Shown here one piece after another: positions 18,977 to 47,566 of a stretch of 64,000 nucleotides of DNA. The notes under the pieces are model-generated. The model was not told the DNA's origin. It did not search any database and worked only from the letters and a program-made list of their open reading frames with translations. Position 1 is the stretch's first letter; the number at the start of each line of letters is the position of its first letter. The translations under genes were made by a program, and so were the position numbers. The stretch lies in assembly GCA_030841085.1 (NCBI GenBank), contig JAVEDP010000038.1, positions 62,001-126,000 on the forward strand, read 5' to 3'. Source of the DNA: Pyrinomonadaceae bacterium (GTDB lineage Bacteria > Acidobacteriota > Blastocatellia > Pyrinomonadales > Pyrinomonadaceae).

Positions 18977-21900
18977 TTATCCTGGTCCAAACCGCTGCCG
19001 GTATTCAGCCGAGACGATAAACGCCTTCACCATTTCCGCATTGACGAAGTTGCCGTTGAACTCCAGCAGTTTGGTCAACCAGAAATCATAGCCCGTATGA
19101 TCAGTGTCTTGTCCCGAGTTGGGATCGCGCCGCAGGTAGCCAAAATACTGCATCAGCACGAATGCCTTATTCTTCTCGGCATTATCGAGAAGGTTGTTTT
19201 CAGCTATACGTCTCAACGCGCGACCACGTGCCGCGTTGTCTGCGGTAGTTCCAGCACCGCCGAACTCGTTGATCGCTGCGTTTCGATCCGCGGTTGAAGG
19301 CGTCACGCCGGCATGTGCAAATAGAGCATCGACAAATTGTGACGGCGTCAGCGTTGACGCATAAGCCGACGTGAAGCGTGTGCGGCCCACGAACTCAGCG
19401 GCGAATGCCACTTTATTGTTTTCAAGCAACTGATCGGCGCCCGGCTGTCCAATCACCACGCCGCGGCCGATTTGCTGACTGTCAACCAGAAATTCGTTGA
19501 ACCTGACGATTGGCACGGGCAGCGTGTGAACTCCGTTAAATGTCGACGTGCCGGTCGCGTCGCCATAAGCGACCTTGTACATTCGTTCGACCAGATAACC
19601 CGTCTGCTGGAATTCGATTGAGAGGAAGAACGCCGCTGAAACATTGATACGTTTCAACTCGATGCAAGACTGAGTGCTGCCACAGTCGCTGATCTGATGA
19701 CTCCAGAAGTCGAGGCCACCCTGGTCGGGATCGCGATTGAGAAAATCAATGTAGTGCTGACGCACAAAGAACCGCGCGTCCGAGTTATCCAGCGGATTGC
19801 TTGTTGGCGGCACCGTGTCGTTATCGGCGATCGTCACGGACGCTACGTTGCGGGCGCCGATTGTCATGCCGGCGGGATTGCTTAGCGCTACGCTGAAGCT
19901 TTCTGCTCCCTCTTGATAAACATCGTCAACGATCAGCACCGTAATCGATTTGCTCGTTTCGCCGGGCGCAAACGTAAGCCTGCCTGAAGCGAACAGGTAA
20001 TCGCCCTTTTGCGTGGCCGAGCCGTCGATAGTCACATAATCGACGGAGGCCTGGAGCGAAGTGTTTCCCGCGCGCGTGACGGTGACGGTCGCGCTACCGG
20101 TCGCCTCGGCTGTATTGAACGGCGACTGCGAAAACTCGACGGTGCTGAGCGACAACCGCGGCTGAAACAATACCGTCTGGGCATTCGTCAAACTTATCGG
20201 CGATTGTTCTGAGGTGTGCGAAGGGATAACGTAAGCATCCGGCTCGCCACCGCCAATTCCCACCACCGGGAAAAGATTGGTGTTGCCGCCGCCGTAGCGC
20301 GTGACAATAGTGCCATCGCTCCGCAGTTCGATCTCAAAATTAACGGTGGGCTGGCTGGCCGCCGGCGAACCATCCCCAAAAATCTCACCCTGCCAACGAA
20401 AGATAATGTGCGAGGCGTCAGGTACTACAACGTAGACGTCGTCGCCCGCATGCCCATCGGTCCTGAGATCATCCCAAAGTCCGGCAATCATTTTGAACTG
20501 GGCCAGGCCAACCGCCGAACCGGGTACGTCATCAGCGTCCCCATTTGAGCGCGTGGGCGGCGTCGAGAAGAAGAGGTTGCCGTTGGTGGAAATGTTAACG
20601 CTCGTGAAGTTCTCGCCGAAGAATGGAAAGGAAAACGGCAACGTGTAATTCAATTTCAACTTGTCATCACCCACCAGACCCAGCGCTGTCCCACCACTTG
20701 AAAGCGCGGTCGCGCCGGCAAGCTGGGTCACGTATGGATCGCCCTGGATCGGATTAATCGTGACCGAAAAGGTGGCGGGTGTTCCTTCGTTTCCAACATT
20801 ATCAAACTCGCGCAGCGTCAGCGTTCCACTTGTATGGCGGTAAGGAATCTTCAGGTCGATGGCCTGCGTGGTGCCGGACGCCGTCGGGATTGTGTTCTTC
20901 AATGGAGTGACAGCGCCACTCGTCCCATCTGTAAAGCTGACGGTGTAGAGCGAAGCCTGGCCGGCTGCGCCATTGTCTCCCGAAGCATTCCAGCCAATAT
21001 TAAATGAGCGGCCGTTCTGCGAATTGATATGAAAATTGGTGACTGTTCCCGGCGGCGTGACATCGCCCTCGGTCAAGGCCACAAAGCTATTCCCGACGTT
21101 GAGTCGCCGGCCGGTAAACGTTTTCCCCGTCAGCGCCGGATCGAGGAGATCACCATTGTAAAGGAGAAGACTTCGCAGTTGCTGCACGGTTAGATTTGGG
21201 TTTGCGGCCAGCAACAGGGCAGCGGCACCGGCAACATGCGGCGACGCCATCGACGTGCCGCTGAAACTCGAGTAGGTGTTGCCGGGAGTTGTGCTGAGAA
21301 TTCCCACTCCGGGAGCGCCGAGCGGCACAGTGTTCGCTCCGTAATGTGAGAACCCGGCGAGATTGTCGGCCGAGTCGGTCGCGGCCACACCAATAACATT
21401 GGGCACGTTATAGCTGGACGGAAAATGCGGAACTAATTCATTGTCCCCGTTATCGCTACTTGCATTGTCTATATTTCCCGCCGCCGCCACAAAAAGAATG
21501 CCCGATTGATTCGCGCCCGTAATGGCATCGAGAAAAGATTGATCAAAGCCGCCACCACCATAACTGTTGTTCAGCACGCGAATGTTTGCGCCTTTTGTGT
21601 GGCCTGAGCTTTCCCACAAATCCTTCATCAACTTGGCGTAGTTGACCGCCCGAATAGCATTGGCAGTATTGCCGGTCGATCCATTAATGAATCGTAACGA
21701 CATCAGGCGCACGTTCCAGTTCACGCCCACCACACCAATACTATTGTTGCCAACAGCCCCGATGGTTCCGGCCACGTGTGTAGCGTGACTTTCGGCGGGA
21801 ATTGTTCCCGAGTTGCCCGCGAAATTGTAGCCATTCACATCGTCGATGAATCCGTTGCCATCGTCGTCGACTCCGTTTCCGGCAATCTCGCCCGGGTTGA

Positions 21901-22480
21901 CCCAGATGTTGCTTGCCAGATCTTCATGAGTCTTATCGATGCCTTCGTCAATCACGCCAACTACGATCGAAGAATTCCCTTGAGTTGTGTTCCACGCGGC
22001 AGGTGCTCCGATTTTGTTCAGACCATAAAGCTCGTTGCTCACAAATCTTGGGTCGTCTGGCGTCAGATCTGGATGGAGCAGATAATTCGGTTCAGCATAA
22101 AGGACGTCGGGCTGTTTATTAAGCGCTTCAATCGCATCCAGTGTTTGTTCCGGCGCCATGTGTGCCAGGCGCAAACCAGGCACGATGTCTGCACCTTCAA
22201 AGCGCTCAATCCGGATTAGCACTTGGTGGGCATTCACAGCCAACGTCGTCTGGGTCGCTACTCTTTTTGCAGCGCCTTCGCTTCTGTATCGGACCAGCGC
22301 CTCGCCGGGAACAAAGGCAGGCTTGCTTCGCTTTTGCGAGCCATCCGGCATTCCCGCCTGTTGCGTGGCTTTTGATGAACGTGGCCCGCTTGCGAGGATA
22401 ATGGCCAGCGCCAGGACAAAGAGGACTGAAAAGAATACACGTGCGCGAGCTGAGATTTTGCGAGAGGGACGAGCAAACAT
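18977..22480 (-). CDS. Secreted subtilisin-like (S8) protease with Calx-beta and DUF4214 domains
   Basis: A 1167-residue protein with AGGAG before ATG at 22480. Residues 1-31 are a signal or membrane anchor. Residues about 55-135 are a fervidolysin-type propeptide (FVPGEALVRYR). The S8 catalytic domain has the triad Asp178 (GVIDEG), His235 (SHATHVAG) and Ser410 (SGTSMASPHVAG), with a calcium-binding-like insert GNGVDDDGNG near 202. An Fn3/Ig-like region and a beta-sandwich follow, then a Calx-beta domain around 800-905 (TVTRAGNTSLQASVDY). The last 250 residues are a DUF4214 module nearly matching the convergent gene. It is likely extracellular and surface-retained. All catalytic residues are present. 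Confidence 0.9.
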   Translation of the reverse strand: MFARPSRKISARARVFFSVLFVLALAIILASGPRSSKATQQAGMPDGSQKRSKPAFVPGEALVRYRSEGAAKRVATQTTLAVNAHQVLIRIERFEGADIVPGLRLAHMAPEQTLDAIEALNKQPDVLYAEPNYLLHPDLTPDDPRFVSNELYGLNKIGAPAAWNTTQGNSSIVVGVIDEGIDKTHEDLASNIWVNPGEIAGNGVDDDGNGFIDDVNGYNFAGNSGTIPAESHATHVAGTIGAVGNNSIGVVGVNWNVRLMSLRFINGSTGNTANAIRAVNYAKLMKDLWESSGHTKGANIRVLNNSYGGGGFDQSFLDAITGANQSGILFVAAAGNIDNASSDNGDNELVPHFPSSYNVPNVIGVAATDSADNLAGFSHYGANTVPLGAPGVGILSTTPGNTYSSFSGTSMASPHVAGAAALLLAANPNLTVQQLRSLLLYNGDLLDPALTGKTFTGRRLNVGNSFVALTEGDVTPPGTVTNFHINSQNGRSFNIGWNASGDNGAAGQASLYTVSFTDGTSGAVTPLKNTIPTASGTTQAIDLKIPYRHTSGTLTLREFDNVGNEGTPATFSVTINPIQGDPYVTQLAGATALSSGGTALGLVGDDKLKLNYTLPFSFPFFGENFTSVNISTNGNLFFSTPPTRSNGDADDVPGSAVGLAQFKMIAGLWDDLRTDGHAGDDVYVVVPDASHIIFRWQGEIFGDGSPAASQPTVNFEIELRSDGTIVTRYGGGNTNLFPVVGIGGGEPDAYVIPSHTSEQSPISLTNAQTVLFQPRLSLSTVEFSQSPFNTAEATGSATVTVTRAGNTSLQASVDYVTIDGSATQKGDYLFASGRLTFAPGETSKSITVLIVDDVYQEGAESFSVALSNPAGMTIGARNVASVTIADNDTVPPTSNPLDNSDARFFVRQHYIDFLNRDPDQGGLDFWSHQISDCGSTQSCIELKRINVSAAFFLSIEFQQTGYLVERMYKVAYGDATGTSTFNGVHTLPVPIVRFNEFLVDSQQIGRGVVIGQPGADQLLENNKVAFAAEFVGRTRFTSAYASTLTPSQFVDALFAHAGVTPSTADRNAAINEFGGAGTTADNAARGRALRRIAENNLLDNAEKNKAFVLMQYFGYLRRDPNSGQDTDHTGYDFWLTKLLEFNGNFVNAEMVKAFIVSAEYRQRFGPG

Positions 22481-28142: not shown

Positions 28143-31100
28143 TTACCGCGCGCGCTTTCCTCTTGCCTTCTTCGCTCCAGTCTTCCTAATCACTCTGTTG
28201 CTCTTCTTCTTTGCCGCCGTCTTTTTCGGCGCCCTCGAACTTTGCGGGCCCTCTGCATCCGAGCTGGGAAAGAAAAACTGGAAATAGGGGTTGCCATAAT
28301 GTTGATAGGCGCCCCAGGTGGTCCTGCCGTTAGTGGTTGCGGCTATTTCAAGTCGCGCCTGCCTGATCGCGAGATGCATGGGAATTGGTCCAGTGTTTCG
28401 AAAGGCGAGCTTGGCATCGCTGCGATCGATTCCCAGCAGCCCTGCGTACAGCGTCAACGCAAAAGTGCGGGCCGCTTCGTCATCCACCGGCCAGGCAGTG
28501 CAGACAAAGTTTGCCACACCACGCGCGAAAAACGCTTCTGCAAAACTGGGAGCCAGCTTGTCGCTGCGCTCCTGCGAACGATCGGGCGTAATTCCGGACT
28601 CGCAAGCATTTGAAAACACAAACTTGGGAATACGGTCGATGCGGTTCAGTTCATCGGCGGTCAACAACTCCCGGGTCGCGGCATTGAAAATCCATCCTGA
28701 CTGAGTCGGATCACCACCCCACTCGAAAACACAGTGACCGGCAAAGTGAAGTACATCGTAACGACGGACCATTAGTTCGCGCAGAACGTTAGTGCGGGTC
28801 GCGTCGATCGGGCCGAACAGCCGCTTGACTTGAATGCGCGTCGCTTTTGGGTCGTTCTCGTTCAACGCATTGTATCTTTCGAACAGGTCGGCGACCATGG
28901 CGCCTTCCTCCTGAGCACCGGGCAGATGCGCATCTGCAGCCGGATCGGCGACCACCAGGACCCGCAACATGTGTTGGGGTGGCGGCGGCGGCTCCGGTGG
29001 CGGCGCGAAGTTAGTCCGCAGTTGTCGTGTTAGTCCTCGCGTGGTTCCCAGGAAGTCGTCCGCATACTCGAAACCTTCGCTGCCGTCAGCTGCCCCTGTT
29101 CCGCTATCGGAACCTGTATTAATGGAAGGTTGGGCCACCATTTCCCAATGGATCCGGGCGGTGGTGGAATCCAGCATCATGACCAAAGGCACCCGAGTGT
29201 AGAGATGCTGGCGCAGGTCATGGGGCATCAGTATGCCTTCCAGAAAACGTCCGCGCTCTAATTGCATTGCAGGTATCTGCTCACCTGCAAGTTCGTCGTT
29301 TGCTTGCCATACAAGTTTTGAATCGATGACAGTGTCGCGCTCCGGAACGGATGCCGTGTCGGTGATTGCGCCGAAGTGATAAGTCTTCTCGTCCTTGTCA
29401 AGGCTGAGCGTAACGCGCGCTGGAACGCTTTGCACGTCGTCTTCCTCACTCCCGCTCTTTTCCCAAGTGTCCTCTAATTCCTTTCGTGCAGCCTGGTAGG
29501 CTTTTTTCAAAAGCGCTTTCTTCTCACTGTCACTAATATCCTGGTACTTGATATCAAATCCGGTCTTGTGGTCCTTATGATATTCGCGCTCCGCGGAAAT
29601 CAACCGGTCCAGTTTGAGTACCTTATGTGGGTCACGCTCAACGAAACTAACGCGCAGGAGCCGTCTGCCCTCATCAAAGCTCGAGCCACTTACGGCGCGC
29701 CTTATTCCTGTCAGCCAGCCTGACACTCCGTCGCGCAGTGCAAGATTTCCTTCCCCGGCGCCAATAACGATGGTGGCGAGATGCACCTTATTGAGACGCC
29801 CCAGCGCCCAACACAACTCCCTGGCCAGCACAGTTAACTCCGGCACGCCGAAACGGCCAGGCTCGTTCATGCCGGCGAGCGCAATCAGTCGCCCGGTTGT
29901 GCCCGTTTTGCGCCCTTTCGGCGGACGCGGATCTGGCAGGATAAATGGTTGGCCCAGTTTGCCTTGAATGATTCCTCGGTCAGTGTACTGGGTCAGGATT
30001 AGATCCTGTTTTGCTTCGGCTAAATTTCGGCTTAACTCACGACCGACCAACGCGCTGCTTATCGCATAGTCGAGGCTGAGCTCGGCCGCCTGTGGCTGCA
30101 CCCCGATATAGTGGCCGACCGAGATCGCATCTACGGCTGCGCCTTTGTTAGTGGTTACGCTTTCATAGTCGATTGCGTCGATGTCGCCGTGAACTAACCC
30201 AATCTCTATTACGGCGGACCCCATTCCCGTATCATCGCGGAATTCGTCGCCAACCTCAGATTCACCTTCACCACTCTGACTTAGAAATCCACGCGTGATG
30301 GTTTCCTCCACCTTCCGCTCTTCGGGACTGACGAGTGGGGGAGCGTTAGTGTAAGTTTCGGTTTGCTCGACAAATAACGAATCTGGATCCGCACGGACTC
30401 CGCGCGCCCCGATGCGCCTTAGTGACAACTGAAATTCCTCGTCGCTTTGTTGGGTAGCCTCATATTGTTTTCTCAAATTCTCCTGGCTTGGCACGGCACG
30501 CGCGGCAGGTAACTTTGTCAACAACGCATCCGTCTCTCCGGTGGCGAGCAAGTCTTCCAGTGCAGCCAGGACCTTGAGATTGGTGCTCAGGTTACCGTGG
30601 TTGTCCTTAATGTAGTAAGGGCCTTTAGCGTTTGCGCCGGCCGGCTTAAGGAAACCGAGTGAATGCGGAACGCGGCCGTCACCGTCAGTAGTTAATGTGT
30701 AGCCATCGGTCTGATTCAGTTTTTTCCAATCTTTCACACCCGAAAAGGTAGGCTGATCGAATCCGGCTACGTAGATCATTCGATCGTCAATTGTGCCGCT
30801 TAGCAAAGAATGGTGTGCGCGAGCGTTGTCCAGGTGGAGCTGCGAAACACTGACGTTGAAGGCGCTATAACTGCCCGACGTATAGAGCTTGTCGATCTCG
30901 GGCATCACCAGTGGAGAAGGCAGCATTTGGTACGAGCCGACAAAGGAATTGAAAACACCCAGCAGGTCATGAAGGTTGTGGCGAAAATCGACCAGGGCCA
31001 CCTTTCTTACCAGATCCTCGAGCCCGGTAATAACCTGGGGAATCGAAAACGAGCCGTGGTTAGGCGTTCCCAACATGACGAGCCTGCCGCCTGCTTTCCC

Positions 31101-31739
31101 GTTGCCGTCTTTGTCCCACATCGTTTTCCACCGGCTGGGGTATTTTTGGATAAACGTGCGCGCAACCAGCCCTCCCATGGAGTGGGCGACGACATGAACT
31201 GGGGCGTTGCTGTCAAACCAACTGCCAATTTGCACGTTTAGCTGATCGGCAGCAAAGTCGAGGTCCTTGCGCCAGTCAAACCAGAAGGCTTTGACGTTCC
31301 AGTTTTCAGAAAGTGACAGCAGCATTTCACCATAGTGGCGCTTCATTATCCCGGTGGCTGCGACGGTAAAATCCGGATTTGCGTCCGCGCGGCCATCGTC
31401 ACTGAGCCGCAGACGGTCGAGCCAGCCGCGCATGATTCGAAAGGTGTTGACCCAGGTGAGGTCACCACTACCGCCGCTGCCGACACTTAGCTCGCCCCCC
31501 ATGATGCCGTGAATCACCACCACATTGCCCTGCGACTGATTACCGAGTCCGCGGCGCCCGACCTTCCGCTTCAAAGCCATGCTGTGCATGCGCTGATATC
31601 TCTGATCGCCGAGATGGGCCCGCAACGCCTTCTCTTGCTCAAGCGTCGGACGTTCAAGAATCTCAGCTAACTCTTCCGGACCAGCGGCCTCGACCCGGTT
31701 GATAAAAGCTCGTTCGTTAAATGGTGCTTCATTAGCCAT
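28143..31739 (-). CDS. Lipase-like alpha/beta hydrolase - CHAT protease fusion
   Basis: A 1198-residue cytoplasmic-looking protein with AAGGAG upstream and no signal peptide. Residues about 70-400 are an alpha/beta hydrolase: VVVIHGIMGG (oxyanion region) and nucleophile Ser187 in VVAHSMGGLVAR, of the LCAT/PGAP1 lipase type. The middle, about 520-900, is unassigned; one segment (VHGDIDAIDYESV) faintly resembles macro-like domains. Residues about 915-1160 are a CHAT (caspase-like) protease with His1002 (LHFAGHC) and Cys1046 (SNACESG) both intact. The tail is Lys/Arg-rich (about 27 residues). CHAT proteases are effectors in several bacterial immune systems. A membrane-attacking or regulated lipase is an inference. 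Confidence 0.85.
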   Translation of the reverse strand: MANEAPFNERAFINRVEAAGPEELAEILERPTLEQEKALRAHLGDQRYQRMHSMALKRKVGRRGLGNQSQGNVVVIHGIMGGELSVGSGGSGDLTWVNTFRIMRGWLDRLRLSDDGRADANPDFTVAATGIMKRHYGEMLLSLSENWNVKAFWFDWRKDLDFAADQLNVQIGSWFDSNAPVHVVAHSMGGLVARTFIQKYPSRWKTMWDKDGNGKAGGRLVMLGTPNHGSFSIPQVITGLEDLVRKVALVDFRHNLHDLLGVFNSFVGSYQMLPSPLVMPEIDKLYTSGSYSAFNVSVSQLHLDNARAHHSLLSGTIDDRMIYVAGFDQPTFSGVKDWKKLNQTDGYTLTTDGDGRVPHSLGFLKPAGANAKGPYYIKDNHGNLSTNLKVLAALEDLLATGETDALLTKLPAARAVPSQENLRKQYEATQQSDEEFQLSLRRIGARGVRADPDSLFVEQTETYTNAPPLVSPEERKVEETITRGFLSQSGEGESEVGDEFRDDTGMGSAVIEIGLVHGDIDAIDYESVTTNKGAAVDAISVGHYIGVQPQAAELSLDYAISSALVGRELSRNLAEAKQDLILTQYTDRGIIQGKLGQPFILPDPRPPKGRKTGTTGRLIALAGMNEPGRFGVPELTVLARELCWALGRLNKVHLATIVIGAGEGNLALRDGVSGWLTGIRRAVSGSSFDEGRRLLRVSFVERDPHKVLKLDRLISAEREYHKDHKTGFDIKYQDISDSEKKALLKKAYQAARKELEDTWEKSGSEEDDVQSVPARVTLSLDKDEKTYHFGAITDTASVPERDTVIDSKLVWQANDELAGEQIPAMQLERGRFLEGILMPHDLRQHLYTRVPLVMMLDSTTARIHWEMVAQPSINTGSDSGTGAADGSEGFEYADDFLGTTRGLTRQLRTNFAPPPEPPPPPQHMLRVLVVADPAADAHLPGAQEEGAMVADLFERYNALNENDPKATRIQVKRLFGPIDATRTNVLRELMVRRYDVLHFAGHCVFEWGGDPTQSGWIFNAATRELLTADELNRIDRIPKFVFSNACESGITPDRSQERSDKLAPSFAEAFFARGVANFVCTAWPVDDEAARTFALTLYAGLLGIDRSDAKLAFRNTGPIPMHLAIRQARLEIAATTNGRTTWGAYQHYGNPYFQFFFPSSDAEGPQSSRAPKKTAAKKKSNRVIRKTGAKKARGKRAR

Positions 31740-36541: not shown

Positions 36542-38029
36542 TCAAGCCAGCGACACCAACCCAGCGCCTTGTATGTTCTTATCGATGCCCGGCAGCGGAG
36601 TACACCTTTGCAAGAGAAAAGTTCGCAAATCGTCTGGTCTTAGGCTGGGATCTTGTTCGAGTAGTAGCGCTACAAGTCCTGAAACATGCGGTGCGGCAAA
36701 ACTTGTCCCAGGCCCGCAATCGCCAAAGCCGCCGCCGACCAGACAGCTCGTGATTCCCGTCCCCTGGAAGATTCCCCCCGGCGCGACCAGGTGAGGGCGC
36801 GTCTTGCTGCCTGCCGGTCCCCGGCTGCTGTAGTTCTGCACGGCGTGTCCCTGTCTATCCGTAGCCCCGACCACAATAACACCTTCAGCGTCAGCCGGCG
36901 TAGTTAGAGTGCCCGCGCCTGGTCCCTTGTTTCCAGCGCTCTTGATTATCGTAAGACCGAGCGCCCAAGCTTCGTCGCAGGCGACCGCCTCGCGCGATGT
37001 GCCGTCACTCGCCGCCCCCGCGCCCCACGAGCAGTTAGCAACGTGGACGCCGTCTTCCAAAGCCTGTTGGATAGCAATTGCGCCATCGAAGTCATCGCCG
37101 GTCAGGGTGCGATTCGTCGCCAGGACCTTATAGTTGTAGATCGTTGCCTCAGGCGCCATTCCGCCAAAGTTCGCGTCGTTCGAAGCGATTATTCCGGCTA
37201 CCGCGGTGCCGTGCAAATCGGAATTTCCCCACGGCTCATCGGTAAAGTTTTGTTTGTGCGCAACTCTCCCTTTCAGCGCTGGATGATTCAGGGCCACCTC
37301 AGAATCAATCACAGCCACGATAATGCCTTTGCCGGTTAGATTGAACTTCTCCCGGAATTGCGGGGCGCCTACCGTGATTCCGCCGACGTCGATCTCTGGC
37401 TCGAGGCGGCGAGTCAGATCAATCCTCTCAATCGAATCATCGGCAGCCACTTCAGTCAGAATCTGAGGATTGGCGAATGATCGAATGGTTCGATTAAGCC
37501 AACACGTTTGGGTGATCGAAGTTCGGGGCTGCGCGACCGCTGCCACAGTCTCAAGCTCGGCGTGAAAAGAGCCGCGGGCACTTTTTTCAAGCTGATCGGT
37601 GATCGCGCTCGATACTTTAAGAAAGTTATCGCGGAGAGAGACCACTTTGACGTAGCGAAGAAGCCGGGCCGAGGATACCGGAAGAAGTGCGGGCTCTGAT
37701 GTTCCCGGCTCCATCAATTCAGTTGTTACTCCCGAGGTTAGAGCCGGAAGCTCAAGCCGATTTAGCATGGTCCTAAATTGTGACCACACTTCTGTATTGC
37801 GCAATTCATCGACAATCTGGTTGAGCCCGGCAGACAACTCGGGTTGGCGCACCATTTCAAGGACTATGGAGCGCGGCCGCGCGATTTCAGTTATGGCCTC
37901 GAGGCCGGCTAGAGTTGGAGCTGGGAGACCGAAAGCAACGCAGAATTCGTCGCTGGCCTTGTTTGCTAACTTTTCGCCCAGCTGGTTTGAAACTCTATTG
38001 CGCGCAGCGGTGACAATTTCCTTGTCCAT
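36542..38029 (-). CDS. Subtilisin-like serine protease (S8), apparently cytoplasmic
   Basis: A 495-residue protein with GAGGAG upstream of ATG at 38029. It has no signal peptide. Residues about 120-212 form the propeptide-like region. The catalytic triad is intact: Asp242 (AVIDSEV), His273 (DLHGTAVAG), Ser443 (GPGTSFAAPHVSG), with the oxyanion Asn367 (KSAGNKG). Residues 1-115 are an unassigned helical extension. The lack of a signal peptide suggests that it acts inside the cell or is released by lysis. It shares a minus-strand operon with the unknown gene at 38076. The small gene at 36191 converges on it and resembles its propeptide. Confidence 0.88.
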   Translation of the reverse strand: MDKEIVTAARNRVSNQLGEKLANKASDEFCVAFGLPAPTLAGLEAITEIARPRSIVLEMVRQPELSAGLNQIVDELRNTEVWSQFRTMLNRLELPALTSGVTTELMEPGTSEPALLPVSSARLLRYVKVVSLRDNFLKVSSAITDQLEKSARGSFHAELETVAAVAQPRTSITQTCWLNRTIRSFANPQILTEVAADDSIERIDLTRRLEPEIDVGGITVGAPQFREKFNLTGKGIIVAVIDSEVALNHPALKGRVAHKQNFTDEPWGNSDLHGTAVAGIIASNDANFGGMAPEATIYNYKVLATNRTLTGDDFDGAIAIQQALEDGVHVANCSWGAGAASDGTSREAVACDEAWALGLTIIKSAGNKGPGAGTLTTPADAEGVIVVGATDRQGHAVQNYSSRGPAGSKTRPHLVAPGGIFQGTGITSCLVGGGFGDCGPGTSFAAPHVSGLVALLLEQDPSLRPDDLRTFLLQRCTPLPGIDKNIQGAGLVSLA

Positions 38030-39894: not shown

Positions 39895-40968
39895 CTATTG
39901 TGTCATGGTGCCGAAGGTGCTGTATCGCAGAGAAAAACTGAATACAGCGGGAGTACCGCGCGGCACTGCGTTTTGATAGAAATTCTGTGGCGGCAAGTCG
40001 TTCTGCGTCAAGATCGGCCCGGTATCAATCAAGCCCTTTGCTCCGGCGCGCAATTCCTGTGGCGTTTGGGTCAATCCTCGGCCCCCCTGAAGAGACCCGC
40101 GATAGTTTATCGCTTGCCCTGCCCTGCTCACGTACTTCGCAAGCTTGACCGGCAAGGGTATTTCGTTTTCACCTATTTCACTTAACCCGAGCAGCTGCGT
40201 TGAAGAAACTATGACAATGAGATTGTCTGCCACCAAAAGTTTCTGCGGGTTGCGCGACATCACGCAGAAGCATCCCTCGGCGCGAGGTAACTGGATTTGT
40301 AAACCGGGTTGCGCCCAGTTCTTCCCCGCATTTATGTTCCTCGAAGGAAATAATAAAAACGCCTCGCCGAGCGTTCCATCCGCGAACTGCTCACGATCGA
40401 TTACATATACAAATCCGCCGCCTGAAAGTGATTCCAGCCCGAGGCGTACTCGTTCTCCCGTTGTCAGAATGGCATTATCTTCAATGCGTTCGGCAGTATC
40501 GATCAGACCCTTGCTTTTGCCGGCCGGTAAAGGGCAATTCCGTACCGGGCATTGACTGGGACTAAGCAGCCAGATCGTTACACCTAAGCGCACGTGCTCC
40601 TGGCCAGCTGGCGGTGGACCTTTAGGAAAATTCTTTTCTACAGAGTAAAGATACTGGGGCGATGACGGATTGACTGCTGTGGCTTTGTTGGTCGCCTGCC
40701 TTTGGATCGCCGAGCTATCTCTTCGCTTACCGTTGCGTTTCGGACCGCCACTGGCGGGTGCTGACTCGGGCTGCGAATCTAGTTTGACACCCGGGCGAGC
40801 GGCGGTAACAGTTGTCGCGCTAATGCTGTAAGCGCCGGAGGGGTCGGTCCCCTTAGTGCCCTCTTGCGCCAGAGTATTCGACTTGCCGAACAAGGCAGCG
40901 CTAACGACGAGTGTAATGAGTTGAGCGACGGTTATCAGCAACCGGCTGTGAGTGGTTCGCGAATGCAT
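39895..40968 (-). CDS. Secreted DUF4384 domain protein
   Basis: About 357 residues. ATG at 40968 is chosen (GAGGGTG upstream) over the TTG at 40980. The N-terminus looks like a signal peptide (ending TLAQ). Residues about 110-265 are a DUF4384-type domain: VRLGVTIWLLSP, GERVRLGLESLSGGGFVYVIDREQF and FLLFPSRNINAG, which match the pattern of the kinase C-terminus upstream. Three-gene order caspase-WD40, kinase-DUF4384, DUF4384, with gaps of 45 and 40 bp, shows one operon. DUF4384 proteins commonly accompany caspase-like and kinase proteins; the domain may bind a ligand or peptide, but its role is not established. Confidence 0.75.
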   Translation of the reverse strand: MHSRTTHSRLLITVAQLITLVVSAALFGKSNTLAQEGTKGTDPSGAYSISATTVTAARPGVKLDSQPESAPASGGPKRNGKRRDSSAIQRQATNKATAVNPSSPQYLYSVEKNFPKGPPPAGQEHVRLGVTIWLLSPSQCPVRNCPLPAGKSKGLIDTAERIEDNAILTTGERVRLGLESLSGGGFVYVIDREQFADGTLGEAFLLFPSRNINAGKNWAQPGLQIQLPRAEGCFCVMSRNPQKLLVADNLIVIVSSTQLLGLSEIGENEIPLPVKLAKYVSRAGQAINYRGSLQGGRGLTQTPQELRAGAKGLIDTGPILTQNDLPPQNFYQNAVPRGTPAVFSFSLRYSTFGTMTQ

Positions 40969-41008
40969 ATTCACCCTCAATTATTTACGTCCGTCCGCAC
41001 TACAAAAG

Positions 41009-42727
41009 CTAACGGTAATTAACTTCCCTGTGCGACAACTCAAGTGGGAACGCCCATACCTCGCGGTTGGCGCTAATCGTCGCACTAGGTGAGATGCCGT
41101 TATTTCTCGTTACGTCCTGCGGTTGAATTCTCTGCTTTTCGAGGAATCCCCTTACAGACTGCTTCTCACCAGCATCAACGATCCGCCCCTTGTTTGAAAA
41201 AGCGGTTCGGTATGCATTTTCCAACTCCGGCACAGCTTGGTTGGCCCATACAATCCACTGCGTTTCAGTTCCTTCGTTTTCATCCAAAGGAAAGCTGTAG
41301 GTGTCCAATCTTTGATTCACAGACAAACGTGCGATGCCGTTGTTGTCTGTAGGATTTGGAAACAAGATATTCAACCCGGGTCCACCGTCGGAGCCGGGGC
41401 CCTCGTTGAGAACGTATAAAAAGCCTTCCGTCGGCGCTTCAAAGTGAAAACTTATTTCTGAGCCATTATTAAAAACCTCTGTTCCCGTCGAGGGAAATGG
41501 AGTTGAATAAGAATTCGACTTCTTGTCCTTCATCTTGGCATTTAACCAATAAGTAAGCGCGCGCGGTGCGGTTTGGCGGCTATAGCGCCAAACAGCCCAC
41601 GCGCCAAGCAGTGATATCACAAGGACAGCAGCGAAACTAGTCAACCACAACTTTCGGTTCGATGGCACTGCAGACGATGACTTTTGGTGGATAACGGCGG
41701 ACGCTTTGCCGGGCTTAGGACTTGCCCCTATGGCTGCCTCGGTAACCGCTGGTTCATCGATCGCGGTTGACTTCTTCCAAGTCGAAATCTCATCGTCATA
41801 TTCCAACAGGGCGCGCGCCAAGTCATCTCCAAAATCACAGGCCCGTTGATAGCGATCGATAACTCGATAGGACAAAGCTTTGAGAATCGCGTCCTGGGCG
41901 GCGACAGGCAAACCTGGTCGCAACACTCTGGGACTCAGCGGTTCTGTCTTTTGCATTTCGGAAAGTTGGAAAGGGGTTTCCGGGTTGAAAGGACAGCGAC
42001 CGGTTACCATTTCGTAGGCGATCACGCCCAGCGCATAGACATCGCTCACCGAGGAAACCTTTTTGCCTTGCAGTTGCTCCGGAGACATGTAGCTGACCGT
42101 GCCGGCAAGTTTTCCGGTGACCGTGCTCGGCGCAACCAGGGAATTTCGAATCTTTGCGATACCAAAGTCTATGACTTTGACTTTCCAGGTGCCATCGGCG
42201 CGACGATGGACCATAACATTCTCCGGCTTCAGGTCTCGATGAACGACTTCATATTCGTGCGCGGCCGTGAGCGTACGCCCTGCTTGTTTCCAGATATGAG
42301 CCACATCGGCAAACTCCATTCCCCGATCCGGGCGCATGTGGGTTCGCAGGTTTTCGCCTTCGACAAACTGCATGACCAGGTAGGGATGACCGTTCCGCAA
42401 AGTTCCAGCGTCAAGCAGGCCGACCACTCCCGGATCATCAATTCGTGTAAGAGCTTCAGCTTCCTGGCGAAACTTGGTAACGATCCACTCGTCTTGAAGC
42501 GCCTTCTCCTGTAAGACTTTGACTACCACTCGCCGCGACATCAGTTCTGGTTTGTCCCGCGCCAGATACACGTCGCCCATGCCCCCGCCGCCAAGTCGCT
42601 GCTCGACGTAGTATCGGCCATCCAAAGTTGAACCGATTAATTCAAACACCTCCGCCGCCGGCACGGTGGTCGAACCGATCTCAGTAGGCTTGGAGCGCTC
42701 ATCAGTCGGGCCTTCGTCTTCCATCAT
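41009..42727 (-). CDS. Membrane Ser/Thr protein kinase with C-terminal DUF4384 domain
   Basis: A 572-residue protein. The Hanks-type kinase domain spans about 38-310: glycine loop GGGGMGDVYLA (46-56), catalytic Lys70 (VVVKVL), HRDLKPEN with Asp165, DFG at Asp187, then SPEQLQG. A membrane span lies at about 360-380 (LWLTSFAAVLVISLLGAWAVW). The extracytoplasmic part, about 390-510, is a DUF4384-type domain (FHFEAPTEGFLYVLNEG, LNILFPNPTDNNG). The kinase should phosphorylate cytoplasmic partners in response to an outside signal. It lies 45 bp after the caspase-WD40 gene and 40 bp before the DUF4384 gene, so it is in one operon. Confidence 0.9.
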   Translation of the reverse strand: MMEDEGPTDERSKPTEIGSTTVPAAEVFELIGSTLDGRYYVEQRLGGGGMGDVYLARDKPELMSRRVVVKVLQEKALQDEWIVTKFRQEAEALTRIDDPGVVGLLDAGTLRNGHPYLVMQFVEGENLRTHMRPDRGMEFADVAHIWKQAGRTLTAAHEYEVVHRDLKPENVMVHRRADGTWKVKVIDFGIAKIRNSLVAPSTVTGKLAGTVSYMSPEQLQGKKVSSVSDVYALGVIAYEMVTGRCPFNPETPFQLSEMQKTEPLSPRVLRPGLPVAAQDAILKALSYRVIDRYQRACDFGDDLARALLEYDDEISTWKKSTAIDEPAVTEAAIGASPKPGKASAVIHQKSSSAVPSNRKLWLTSFAAVLVISLLGAWAVWRYSRQTAPRALTYWLNAKMKDKKSNSYSTPFPSTGTEVFNNGSEISFHFEAPTEGFLYVLNEGPGSDGGPGLNILFPNPTDNNGIARLSVNQRLDTYSFPLDENEGTETQWIVWANQAVPELENAYRTAFSNKGRIVDAGEKQSVRGFLEKQRIQPQDVTRNNGISPSATISANREVWAFPLELSHREVNYR

Positions 42728-42772
42728 TTCATCATTTCAACTTTTAGTGTTCGAGCATGACGACGAGTCGCA

Positions 42773-45700
42773 TCAGGGATTTCGTGCCACGATAGTGTCC
42801 CGGCTGCCGCGGGCGAAGTCGAACAGGGCAGGTTGTTGCAGTCTGCCTGCGTTAGCTTGCGCGTTGTTGTTGGCGGCCGGAATGGTGCCGGCGTTTAAAC
42901 CGGGCGCCGGCGAGTCGCCGGTTATCGGCGTCGTCGTACCGGTGTCCTGCAAACCACGCGCATTGTCCTGCAAGATCAAACGAGGCTGATCGCCCGCGGG
43001 CGATGAAGCACTGGAAATTTGTCCATTCCTGATTTGTTCGTTCAGCTTCGGTACGCGATCCTCACCATACTCCAACCACTCGAGCAAAGTGATCGTCTTG
43101 TCGACGGGCTTGAAATCCGCGTGTTGCGATCCCAGACCGTCCCGCGTTAGCGCATAACTTAAGAGGCCTTGGCTGATGGACTTGTTTTCCAAAGCTACAT
43201 TATCCGCCTGGGTCGCAGTCAGGATTCGCATTCCTTTGTCATACGACAACTGTCCTAGACCACGACTGCCCATCGGTCCGGGCCTAAACCCGCCACCTTC
43301 GACAGCAGCGGTAGAGTGGCAAGCATCCACGATTAGCACTAGCTCGCCGGCGTCCACGTCGCGTAACCACAAAGAGAGATCATCACTGGAAATGCTGTGT
43401 CGGCGCACCTGGTCCGTGAAAACTTTCTGCGTGCCCGCACCGGTGTCATAAGGGATGAGATAAAAATTCCCGGCGCGATCCGCGTAACCGTGGCTCGAAT
43501 AGAGAATCAACACCATGTCGTCCGGGGTTGCCGGACGCAGTTTGTCAAAGTTTGCAATACTGCCGCCGCTCGCGGGCCGCGGCATATCAGCTTTGTCACT
43601 CTTGGTTTTCGTCGCCGGCGCAGTTACTACTTTCGCAGGCGGCTTCTTTCCTCGCGCAGCTTTGGTTGGTCTGGGCGTAAGCGCTAATGCTGCTGCCGCG
43701 GCAGGCTTGATCGTTTCCATCGTCGCTTGCTGAGCGCGATTGTTAAGCCGCGTCAACACTCGGCGGAAATTTTCTTTCGTAGCCAGGTTTTCGCTGTCGA
43801 CTGTTTGCTCGCCCTGTTTTTTGTATTTGGAGGTGAGGCTAATGGGGACTATCTCCGAAAACTGCCCGGTTGCCGCGAGATCCCTGGCCATTGCCACTTG
43901 CAACTCTTTCGCGTCGTTGCCGGGAAATTCAAGATTAAAGGTCGGGTTCTCGAACGCGGTAACGCCAACTGAAATGATATAAGCCCGTCCCTTGCGCGCC
44001 TGTGCGGCCGCCGGCAAGGCATAGTGAAAACGGTCGGTCAAACTCTTCACTCGATCCTCGTTGAAGGCGTAGGCGGAAAAGACGATTTCGCTTTTCTCTG
44101 ACCTTTGTGGGACCTTGACGTTGTTGAAAGTCAATAAGGTACGTCCAGCGCCGGCGTCCAGTTGAATCTTATTGGCAGCGCGCCACGCCGCAAGTTCCTC
44201 CGTAAGCGTCTGGGTAACTGACGGTGCTACTGAATTCTCCGCTGCGGGCGTCGAGTAGCCCACCAATTGCCCGTTGCGAAACAGTCGCACATCATAAACG
44301 CCTGACCGTCGCGGCTGTCCTTGCGCGTCAGTTTGCGTTTCACTGGCAGCGTCTGCGACTTCGACGGTAATGCGCACCGTGTCTGCATTAACAGGAATCA
44401 CTTCTTTAATTTTTACTTTGGGCTGCGCGCGATTCGTCTTTGCTAAATCGGGCAACTCGCCAAATTCATCAGCGCTCAACAAACGCGTCAATAGACGCGG
44501 CTCGTAAAAATAGCGCATGAAGACCTCGACCGGTTCGGGGTTATACGGCTCGTTCGGCATAATCCAATGAACTTCTTCAATCTCGTCTAACCGGCTGGTA
44601 TCAAAACGTCCATCGGGAGTGGTCAGCATCCAGTCGTCTTCATTAGGAGCGACCAGGATTCCCAGCTCGTCCTGGGTTGCGACGTTGAACAAGCGCACTT
44701 TGTTTTCGACGCCACCTAGCGCGATCGTTTTACCATTGGGGCTGTAAGCCAGGCTGCCCCAAACGTCCGTTTCGATTTTTAGTTTTTCAACGCGCTTTGA
44801 GATCAAATCCCAAGAATAAATCTTGCTGAAAATGGTGAAGGTGAGGACATTCTTCTGCGGCACGAAAATGAAGCTGCTGACGTCTGTCCCCAAATCGAGC
44901 TTATGGTCGTAAAGCTCCTTGCCGTTGTCGGCCTCCCATACCTTGATTTTGTCTTTATCCTCACTCGCCATCAGCTTACTGTCTGAGCTAAAAACTACTT
45001 TTGATACGAAGTTGCTCTGAAATTCTCGTTCGACATCTTTTTCGTACAACTCGCGCCAGGCCGCCGGTTGGCCCACTTCATAAACATCAATTTCCGTCTT
45101 GTTGCGAAAGGAATCCCAAATGGATTGACCTTTCGGCATATAAGCAAACTTCTTTGTATCAGGACTGAAACTAAACTGATTCTCCAAAATGTTGCCGGCG
45201 TCGAACACTCGTTGACCGCTGCTAATATCCATGATGCGGAGTTGGACTTTGCGTGAAGCAAAAAATTTCAGTCTGACCTTTTCCTCGAGAATTTCCAGCA
45301 CCACCATTTTGTTGTCGGGGCTGAACTGAGCGGCGATGATTTTTTGCGTAGGCGGATCTTCGACGGCAAAACTCTGGATATCTTTCTCAGAGTTTAGGCC
45401 GCGCACCGTGAGAGTTTTTTCGTCAGGCGAGACGTGCAAGAGTAGCTGGCCATCGGGGGAAACAGGAAGGTTGTTACCGAGAGCCGGGGACGTTTCAACG
45501 ATACGTTGTGGGTTGGAACGTTTCTCCAGGTCCCACAACTTAACGCCGCCTGCAAAACTTGAGGTCAAAAGGAGCTTATCGTTCGCAAAGCGCGGCACAG
45601 TAGTTAAGGGAAACGGAATCGGCACCTTCTGCCCTTTGATTGAACCGCGTTTGGCGACGGCCAGCGTTGCCAACTCCTGCCCGGTCACCGCGTCCCAGCG

Positions 45701-47566
45701 TTGGATGTTTTTGAAGTTCTTGCAGCCGTTGAGAGTCTTGCCATCCGTGCTGTAACGAATGGGACAAAGTTGGCGAAAGTAGGCACTGATCGCTTCGCTT
45801 GGTTTTTTTGCTGTAACTGCGGCACTGACTTTCTTGCCCGGACCTTTGTTTTTGGCGTCGTCCGTATCAAACGGGTCGTCCTGTTCCACCGTTAATATCT
45901 CTTTGTTGTCTTCCAACCTGAGAACGTGAATGACGTTGTCGCCCGCTTGATAGGCTAAGGATTTAGAGTCGGGGTTGAAAGCGACAGCGCGAATGCTTTT
46001 ATTCTTGAAGAGCAGGTTGCGTAGCTGGTCGCCGGCTTCAATCAAACTGGAAAACGCATCGCCAACGTCACCGACGATTGGAACTCTGCCGACCTTGCGT
46101 CCGACGGCGATGAAATCTTCCTCCCCTGGTCCGTCGATGAGTTTCTTTAGTTCCTTACCGTCGTTAACGGTATAGGCTTTCAGCGTGCCGTTGATATTGC
46201 CGCAAGCAATAAGAGCGCCGTCAAGACTAAATGATAAGGAAGAAAGCGCCGCTATGTCGGTGTTGATTATGCGACTCTCTTTGCCGGTAGCGGTCGACCA
46301 AATCTTTATTCGATAGCCTTCAACGACTCCTGCCACCAGAGCGCCGTCGCTGCTCAAAGCCACCAACGGCACATATTCCTTATTCGCCATTTGATACAAG
46401 ACGCTGCTCTTGGCTATGTCCCAAACCTTGACGCCGCCGTTGCCGCCGCTGACCAAAACTTTGCCCGAGGAACTAAAGGCCACCGGCGCCGGCAAATTGA
46501 AAAAAGGATTGGTGTCTTCGCTTTTGCCGATCTTAGGCAGCGGGATAGGGATCAGGCTTCCGCCACCGCTCTTAATCGGCGTCAAACGATGAAGGATCCT
46601 GGCGGTGCTGACATCGAAAATACGAAGCACGCCGTTTTTGCTCAGACAGGCTATGCTGCGGCTGTCAGGGTTAAAGGCCATGCCAATCACTTGATAGCCC
46701 GGCACGCTCACGATCTCCTGGCCCTTGCTGGTCAACCAAAGTTTGACCACCCCGTCGGCGGCCAATGTCGCCAGAAGTTTTCCGTTTGGACTGTAGACAA
46801 AATCGGTGACCATAGACGTATGACTGGTTTGAACAACCAAACGCGGTCGCGCGCTAGCGCTGAATAAATCAGTAGTCGAAGTGCGCACCGGCGCAGCGTT
46901 AGCATTCCCGTTGTCCGGTAGCGGTGGGGTTGAACCTGGTTGCGTTGGCGCGGCAGGAGAAGCTGCTTTACTCAAAACCGTTTCGACGATCTTGTTTAGA
47001 ACCGAACGTAGAATTGCCTCGGCGTCTTTTCCTTTTTCCGCTAAAGTTTGCTCGGGCGATATTTGACCGCTATCGACATCATCAACGCGATACTGCACTT
47101 CTAATTTATACTTAGCTCCAAACGGCAATCTGAAAGTAGGAGAGTCGCCGGCGATGGTCAGGAATAATAAAAGCTGACAACCCTCTTTCGCGGCTTCTCG
47201 CTTAAGTGTATTGGGGTCGGTGGCGTTTTCAAGAATAGCGGCTTGTACGATTTGCTCTTTTGGCTTCAATAGCCCTATCAACCGGTCGACAAAAGCTTCA
47301 CCCGATAACGATCCCTTCTTTATGGTTGGCGACAATATGCACAACCGCACCGGCTTATTTTGGGATGGAGTCGTTACCGCGGATGCTTCGTTAGAGTTCT
47401 TGAAAAGGCTTTCATACGGATTGGCTGCAAGCGGTTGCCGCTCGTTGCGTCGAACTATGGGCTGAGCAAAAGCAGGCAACAAAGAGAAATTCAACGCACA
47501 CATTATCAGCGCGCTGAAAAGTCTTTGGAAAGTCCGGAGAAAACAATGATGAGTATTGGTTCTCAC
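42773..47566 (-). CDS. Secreted WD40 repeat - caspase-like protease
   Basis: A 1597-residue protein. The start is GTG at 47566, supported by AGGAGG six bases upstream. A signal peptide ends near residue 35 (PAFAQ). A small alpha/beta domain (about 70-205) follows. Residues about 250-1010 hold many WD40-type repeats (for example MVTDFVYSPNGKLLATLAADGVVKLW), enough for two propellers. A linker with Ig-like character follows, then a caspase-type domain with the dyad His1359 (LYSSHGYAD) and Cys1416 (LIVDACHSTA), both intact. The tail is Asn/Ala/Pro-rich. Bacterial caspase-WD40 proteins are proposed signalling or death proteases. It heads an operon with a kinase and a DUF4384 protein. Confidence 0.9.
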   Translation of the reverse strand: MRTNTHHCFLRTFQRLFSALIMCALNFSLLPAFAQPIVRRNERQPLAANPYESLFKNSNEASAVTTPSQNKPVRLCILSPTIKKGSLSGEAFVDRLIGLLKPKEQIVQAAILENATDPNTLKREAAKEGCQLLLFLTIAGDSPTFRLPFGAKYKLEVQYRVDDVDSGQISPEQTLAEKGKDAEAILRSVLNKIVETVLSKAASPAAPTQPGSTPPLPDNGNANAAPVRTSTTDLFSASARPRLVVQTSHTSMVTDFVYSPNGKLLATLAADGVVKLWLTSKGQEIVSVPGYQVIGMAFNPDSRSIACLSKNGVLRIFDVSTARILHRLTPIKSGGGSLIPIPLPKIGKSEDTNPFFNLPAPVAFSSSGKVLVSGGNGGVKVWDIAKSSVLYQMANKEYVPLVALSSDGALVAGVVEGYRIKIWSTATGKESRIINTDIAALSSLSFSLDGALIACGNINGTLKAYTVNDGKELKKLIDGPGEEDFIAVGRKVGRVPIVGDVGDAFSSLIEAGDQLRNLLFKNKSIRAVAFNPDSKSLAYQAGDNVIHVLRLEDNKEILTVEQDDPFDTDDAKNKGPGKKVSAAVTAKKPSEAISAYFRQLCPIRYSTDGKTLNGCKNFKNIQRWDAVTGQELATLAVAKRGSIKGQKVPIPFPLTTVPRFANDKLLLTSSFAGGVKLWDLEKRSNPQRIVETSPALGNNLPVSPDGQLLLHVSPDEKTLTVRGLNSEKDIQSFAVEDPPTQKIIAAQFSPDNKMVVLEILEEKVRLKFFASRKVQLRIMDISSGQRVFDAGNILENQFSFSPDTKKFAYMPKGQSIWDSFRNKTEIDVYEVGQPAAWRELYEKDVEREFQSNFVSKVVFSSDSKLMASEDKDKIKVWEADNGKELYDHKLDLGTDVSSFIFVPQKNVLTFTIFSKIYSWDLISKRVEKLKIETDVWGSLAYSPNGKTIALGGVENKVRLFNVATQDELGILVAPNEDDWMLTTPDGRFDTSRLDEIEEVHWIMPNEPYNPEPVEVFMRYFYEPRLLTRLLSADEFGELPDLAKTNRAQPKVKIKEVIPVNADTVRITVEVADAASETQTDAQGQPRRSGVYDVRLFRNGQLVGYSTPAAENSVAPSVTQTLTEELAAWRAANKIQLDAGAGRTLLTFNNVKVPQRSEKSEIVFSAYAFNEDRVKSLTDRFHYALPAAAQARKGRAYIISVGVTAFENPTFNLEFPGNDAKELQVAMARDLAATGQFSEIVPISLTSKYKKQGEQTVDSENLATKENFRRVLTRLNNRAQQATMETIKPAAAAALALTPRPTKAARGKKPPAKVVTAPATKTKSDKADMPRPASGGSIANFDKLRPATPDDMVLILYSSHGYADRAGNFYLIPYDTGAGTQKVFTDQVRRHSISSDDLSLWLRDVDAGELVLIVDACHSTAAVEGGGFRPGPMGSRGLGQLSYDKGMRILTATQADNVALENKSISQGLLSYALTRDGLGSQHADFKPVDKTITLLEWLEYGEDRVPKLNEQIRNGQISSASSPAGDQPRLILQDNARGLQDTGTTTPITGDSPAPGLNAGTIPAANNNAQANAGRLQQPALFDFARGSRDTIVARNP

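Follow-up and report, generated by a model that had tools for sequence, protein, structure and literature searches.

What do an exported caspase homologue, a membrane receptor kinase and a secreted protein that shares the outer domain of the kinase do together in one bacterial gene cluster? Three such genes, encoding a WD40-caspase, a Ser/Thr kinase with a DUF4384 ectodomain and a secreted DUF4384 protein, lie next to each other in the window, i.e. the whole 64,000-nucleotide stretch of a Pyrinomonadaceae bacterium that was analysed (assembly GCA_030841085.1, contig JAVEDP010000038.1, positions 62,001 to 126,000; contig C11 of our genome set, from a genome of 4.69 Mb in 43 contigs). We know of no function for DUF4384, and little is known of what bacterial caspase homologues and CHAT peptidases do in nature. 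As judged from gene neighbourhoods, the trio is a variant of a broader Acidobacteriota cassette that combines a DUF4384 receptor kinase, a secreted partner and an exported clan CD peptidase. We give a probability of about one half to the reading that the trio is a transmembrane signalling cassette, in which extracytoplasmic proteolysis of the DUF4384 protein would gate the receptor kinase.

Orthology from the caspase sequence alone was dropped, as the best matches (in genomes G036, G037, G041 and G048) have neither a kinase-DUF4384 nor a DUF4384 gene adjoining. Because these matches stand outside cassettes, we anchored the neighbourhoods on the secreted DUF4384 protein instead, which was searched for in 97 relatives; 84,980 species genomes were scanned as well. 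The search yielded 63 named loci and further loci from the relatives; the named carriers are Pyrinomonadaceae, Blastocatellia, Bryobacterales and Terriglobia metagenome-assembled genomes (MAGs) of Acidobacteriota. Neighbours were annotated with profiles built here, and with Pfam on representatives. Of the 74 distinct genes for secreted DUF4384 proteins, 66 belong to a run of same-strand genes that includes a DUF4384 kinase and/or a clan CD peptidase: 57 have a peptidase (37 TPR-CHAT or CHAT, and 20 caspases of the WD40, TPR or plain kind), 41 have a kinase, 32 have both, and 11 are accompanied by an extracytoplasmic function (ECF) sigma factor. A reverse search from the kinase side, made to avoid bias, found that 50 of 66 DUF4384 ectodomains have a same-strand secreted partner no more than 12 kb away, the misses including contig ends. 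The genome that holds the window has four cassettes (on contigs C11, C4, C26 and C31) with a clan CD peptidase in each, and all five of its Pfam DUF4384 matches fall in three of them. The whole genome contains 13 clan CD peptidase matches (7 CHAT and 6 C14), so that the chance of meeting a peptidase among 8 neighbour positions is about 3%, an estimate that assumes roughly 4,000 genes.

As the original prediction had recommended, conservation of gene order was checked, and the window order (caspase, kinase, DUF4384) was found in five relatives: G001, G004, G007, G066 and G067, the last with additional caspase genes. Judged by coordinates, the gene spacing is operon-like: all 24 kinase-DUF4384 pairs and all 8 caspase-kinase pairs are at most 250 bp apart, and 30 CHAT genes are followed by a DUF4384 gene at a median gap of 21 bp. 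In the window the caspase-kinase gap is 45 bp and the kinase-DUF4384 gap is 28 bp (TTG start) or 40 bp (ATG at codon 5). The description of a closely spaced set of genes for a secreted caspase, a membrane kinase and a secreted DUF4384 protein was right in its genes and coordinates. Its treatment of this exact trio as a unit was not borne out: the peptidase slot swaps between caspase and CHAT, the order varies, and the caspases of G036, G037 and G041 stand alone. From the compared loci, the slot is exchangeable and may hold a WD40-caspase, a TPR-caspase or a TPR-CHAT protein, with an ECF sigma factor sometimes added. Scans for promoters and terminators gave nothing above the level of shuffled sequence.

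The trees carry the same association into the history of the proteins. When CHAT versus other cassettes are mapped on the kinase tree, the label needs 3 changes as compared to 15.9 after shuffling (none of 500 shuffles is as low); on the DUF4384 tree it needs 10 as compared to 24.7, i.e. it is clustered, with several switches. By these trees, the kinase lineage tracks the type of peptidase, with the kinases of CHAT and caspase cassettes in different parts of the tree, and the clustering in both suggests that the partners were inherited together while the peptidase slot was swapped a number of times. The window proteins fall near the G067 locus (L150, a contig of the Blastocatellia MAG palsa_120) in all three trees. 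Ahead of its kinase that locus has two WD40-caspase genes, the outer of which forms a group with the window caspase (59% identity, support 88). This placing is likely, not certain, given the long branches; where the window DUF4384 protein belongs in its own tree is unsure for the same reason (long branch). The occurrence of the caspase subfamily without the other two genes could be taken to mean that the trio are chance neighbours, or merely co-transcribed with no common pathway, but in view of the 66/74 association, the tight spacing, the repeated order and the concordance of kinase and peptidase in the trees we consider this the least probable explanation of all. The module is well supported by the comparison, and the fact that the gene set is kept together in these soil bacteria of the Acidobacteriota suggests a signalling relay that crosses the cell envelope under protease control.

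The features of the three proteins, listed in Table 1, indicate where such a relay could operate. The caspase has a weak Peptidase_C14 match (PF00656, 25.1 bits, above the cut-off of 21.4), and its WD40 repeats are clear in the Pfam search. We note an extra N-terminal stretch ahead of its first WD40 repeat (residues ~60-205, no Pfam match), which most cassette WD40-caspases do not have. The catalytic His and Cys, claimed to be intact in the window protein, do sit at His1359 and Cys1416, and a check for loss of catalytic residues found the dyad kept in 41 of 41 aligned homologues. For the CHAT proteins the His is kept in 50 of 50 and the Cys in 49 of 49. As the active-site residues are kept throughout, the peptidases are under selection for activity. 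Full-length cassette caspases, CHAT proteins and secreted DUF4384 proteins start with signal peptides, mostly ending in A-Q, as judged by hydropathy and by eye (automatic counts are lower, with uncertain starts and some open reading frames cut). Together with the transmembrane stretch of the kinase, this places the peptidase, the free DUF4384 protein and the receptor ectodomain in one compartment, which agrees with the earlier proposal that sensor, free domain and caspase are on the same side of the membrane.

Table 1. Features of the trio (positions are those of the window; residues are those of the encoded proteins)
Feature	Positions	Strand	Basis or remark
Exported WD40-caspase, 1597 aa	42773..47566	-	GTG start, AGGAGG upstream
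Caspase signal peptide, residues 1-34, PAFA/Q	47465..47566	-	sequence and hydrophobic stretch
WD40 propeller region, residues 239-992	44591..46852	-	profile matches
Caspase (C14) domain, residues 1341-1508	43043..43546	-	profile matches
Catalytic His1359	43490..43492	-	position and homologue alignment
Catalytic Cys1416 in VDACHS	43319..43321	-	position and homologue alignment
Receptor Ser/Thr kinase, DUF4384 ectodomain, 572 aa	41009..42727	-	
Kinase domain, residues 32-305	41813..42634	-	GGGGMG, VVVK, HRDLKPEN, DFG, SPE all present
Single transmembrane stretch, ~residues 359-381	41585..41653	-	hydropathy
DUF4384 ectodomain, residues 389-540	41108..41563	-	relatives' profiles; predicted Ig-like beta-sandwich
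Secreted DUF4384 protein, 361 aa from TTG	39895..40980	-	likely true start ATG at 40968
Signal peptide of secreted DUF4384 protein, NTLA/Q	40867..40968	-	
N-terminal conserved motif, degenerate: Y51, I53, V58, R62 P63	40792..40830	-	
Low-confidence linker, residues 71-110 (basic in family)	40651..40770	-	
DUF4384-family domain, residues 130-353	39922..40593	-	

The kinase is a Hanks kinase by Pfam (143.8 bits), and with its catalytic motifs and one transmembrane stretch leading to an outer domain it has the make-up of a Hanks-type receptor. The catalytic loop is kept in 48 of 50 cassette kinases, and a membrane stretch, called with a plain hydropathy threshold, separates kinase from DUF4384 in 43 of 50. 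DUF4384 (PF14326) on the window kinase scores under the Pfam gathering cut-off (16.5 vs 27), and the Pfam search gives no PF14326 match on the window secreted protein. Profiles built from relatives match both (96 bits for the kinase ectodomain, 178 bits for the secreted protein), the free and kinase-borne profile sets are homologous by hhalign (98.2% probability, E 3.5e-14), and aligned paralogues in the window genome pass the Pfam DUF4384 cut-off at the same place. We therefore count both proteins as DUF4384, on homology to members above the cut-off.

The secreted family has a common plan: a signal peptide (A conserved in 40 of 49 and Q in 41 of 48 at its end), a motif R-x-[IL]-x4-F-x3-RP, a basic linker and the domain. 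The linker has a median of 45 residues with 19% K/R as compared to 6% D/E, and K/R exceeds D/E in 64 of 66 proteins. In the model of the window secreted protein, confidence is good over the motif region (51-70) and the domain but not over the linker; the model of the kinase ectodomain is very confident (pLDDT 91.9). On these models, both DUF4384 domains are predicted Ig-like beta-sandwiches. Sequence searches found no solved structural relative of the DUF4384 domains, Foldseek found no fold match with E < 0.001, and weak cytochrome b562 matches in a structure-by-sequence search were discounted as chance. VIA matches to RbmA/GbpA, RhoGDI and Wzt, all under Z 8, were taken only as "Ig-like beta-sandwich". 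The best of these weak matches are to matrix- or glycan-binding proteins (RbmA, GbpA and Wzt; Z 7.7 and below; Z 5.2), as would fit a role in surface recognition or adhesion, in which the Ig-like DUF4384 protein would be a binder of glycans or neighbour cells, the peptidase the enzyme that sheds or matures it, and the kinase the sensor of contact; the Z values are within the usual beta-sandwich range, however, and with the Foldseek result this makes such a role unlikely.

How might the three proteins work together? Under the signalling reading, the peptidase would be kept inactive until an envelope stimulus reaches its WD40 (or TPR) part. Once activated it would cleave the secreted DUF4384 protein, with the flexible basic stretch that links the N-terminal motif to the Ig-like domain as the most likely site. 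We infer this proteolytic step; the linker is proposed as the site because a basic linker fits the preference of orthocaspases, which cut after the positively charged residues Arg and Lys (PMC6426788). The processed protein would then act on the homologous kinase ectodomain, either by pairing with it or by ceasing to block it, and the kinase would signal inside the cell. The domain common to free protein and receptor suggests such pairing or competition, and release from inhibition is a plausible switch since the periplasmic part of PknS appears to keep the full-length kinase in check (PMC13147305). In its more specific form, which we put forward only tentatively, a secreted Ig-like ligand, once processed by an exported peptidase of the caspase or CHAT kind, would switch a receptor kinase with the same domain. 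Such a ligand-processing cascade would be a prokaryotic analogue of Spaetzle-Toll in logic, not in descent.

The shared domain can also be read the other way round. The secreted DUF4384 protein may regulate the exported peptidase, as an inhibitor, docking partner or chaperone, and the kinase ectodomain may read or compete for the same contact and so report to the cell on the peptidase's state. The gene immediately after the peptidase is often that for DUF4384, as in the CHAT-DUF4384 pairs counted above, and the tracking of peptidase type by kinase lineage would be expected here too; on the other hand, with its conserved N-terminal motif and basic linker the protein resembles a precursor that is processed more than it does an inhibitor, and no inhibitor fold was recognised in the structure comparisons. 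We regard this explanation as rather doubtful; ranked by likelihood, it comes ahead of surface recognition, defence and coincidence, in that order.

For proteolytic gating of the kinase, the ECF factors found in or beside the cassettes offer a possible output. They belong to PF07638/TIGR02999, and in 16 of 18 ECF factors of related loci, read by eye from an alignment, the place of the DAED acids in region 2.2 is taken by QTTA, QSTA, QPTA, QATA or EATS. In ECF43 factors the QTTA/STTA motif holds the threonine that is phosphorylated by the partner kinase (PMC13147305, PMC8999054). A threonine at the ECF43 phosphosite strongly suggests a path from kinase to sigma factor in the ECF-bearing cassettes, where the kinase would activate the sigma factor by phosphorylating region 2.2. 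Linked ECF factors with the ECF43-like QTTA-type threonine are found at L013, L115, L122, L127 and other CHAT cassettes, and the motifs suggest that many Acidobacteriota kinase-sigma pairs are tied to exported CHAT peptidases.

Several observations weigh against the proteolytic signalling reading. Linked ECF factors are almost confined to CHAT cassettes (10/11), caspase cassettes being mostly without one, and inspection of the neighbourhood found no ECF sigma factor gene linked to the window trio. The window caspase subfamily is also found alone, cassette-free, in G036, G037, G041 and G048. Some cassettes have no kinase or no peptidase, a number of these being at contig ends. The window secreted DUF4384 protein itself has a degenerate N-terminal motif and a linker less basic than that of the family (11% K/R), and the cleavage preferences of CHAT and caspase need not be alike.

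WD40-caspases are tied to cell death in the cyanobacterial literature (PMC7475262) and caspases are used by some bacterial conflict systems (PMC7159879), so one could also think of defence or programmed cell death, with the caspase killing the cell on infection. The peptidases are exported, i.e. away from phage replication; PADLOC gave no specific match for the caspase or the DUF4384 protein and only generic kinase models for the kinase; no NACHT/STAND NTPase or effector-associated domain was found in the trio; and the recognisable genes around the window cassette have envelope and housekeeping functions. The idea of phage defence in the original prediction is thus unsupported, and we consider this role quite improbable. 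We class the cassette as kinase-based envelope signalling.

Among described systems, PknS-EcfK of Xanthomonas citri and PknT-EcfP of Vibrio parahaemolyticus (ECF43 group) resemble the ECF-bearing cassettes in having a transmembrane Hanks kinase with a periplasmic part next to an ECF gene, and the same QTTA-type phosphosite (PMC13147305, PMC8999054). They are described without an exported clan CD peptidase or a secreted twin of the ectodomain, and the window cassette differs from them further in having no linked ECF factor. Orthocaspases of cyanobacteria and alphaproteobacteria have a C14 p20 domain with the His-Cys dyad, as here, and are known to carry WD40 and DUF4384 as accessory domains (PMC7475262, PMC8283722, PMC6426788); there, DUF4384 is fused to the peptidase, whereas in the cassette a receptor kinase and a separate secreted protein of the same operon carry it, and the caspase is exported. 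In ECF54 neighbourhoods CHAT and subtilase genes lie near the sigma factor and proteolysis has been suggested (PMC8999054). CHAT peptidases are near sigma genes here too, but no DUF4384 kinase with its partner is described for the ECF54 neighbourhoods (PMC8999054), and the cassette CHAT proteins are exported. Caspase-containing NTPase conflict systems (PMC7159879) likewise have exchangeable caspase effectors in conserved operons; unlike them, the cassette has no NTPase or effector-associated domains and pairs an exported peptidase with a receptor kinase.

Already known, then, are orthocaspases with WD40 or DUF4384, CHAT peptidases, kinase-activated ECF factors and ECF54 near CHAT genes. New in the searched literature is their combination in a cassette where the exported peptidase can be exchanged and the receptor domain has a secreted twin; a description of the cassette was not found in literature on DUF4384, PF14326, CHAT, ECF, kinases and Acidobacteria, a search of open-licence papers only, which leaves novelty unproven. 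The cassette gives exported caspases, CHAT peptidases and DUF4384 concrete partners (a candidate substrate or ligand, and a receptor), to which related cassettes add a sigma factor with a predicted phosphosite, so that the targets and purpose of exported bacterial caspases become directly testable with three or four genes.

Elsewhere in the window, a second clan CD protein is encoded at 28143-31739 (-), with a C-terminal CHAT domain (90.7 bits) and a weak alpha/beta-hydrolase (LCAT-like) match close to the N-terminus; its gene adjoins LpxD-like and LptD genes and has no DUF4384 neighbours. Two subtilase (S8) genes lie near the cassette, at 36542-38029 (-) and 18977-22480 (-), the former separated from it by one 404-aa open reading frame. 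The C26 cassette (G000:C26, L012) has the order kinase-DUF4384, DUF4384 (then TPR-CHAT) and a distinct, fast-evolving DUF4384 subfamily; cassettes of this type seem to be widespread in the family, with likely orthologues at, e.g., G003:C9, G004:C871 and G009:C357. Finally, the DUF4384 protein and kinase of L182 (VFZE01000065.1, labelled Acidimicrobiia) group with those of the Terriglobia locus L170 at full support; rather than an occurrence beyond Acidobacteriota, L182 is probably a contig assigned to the wrong bin.

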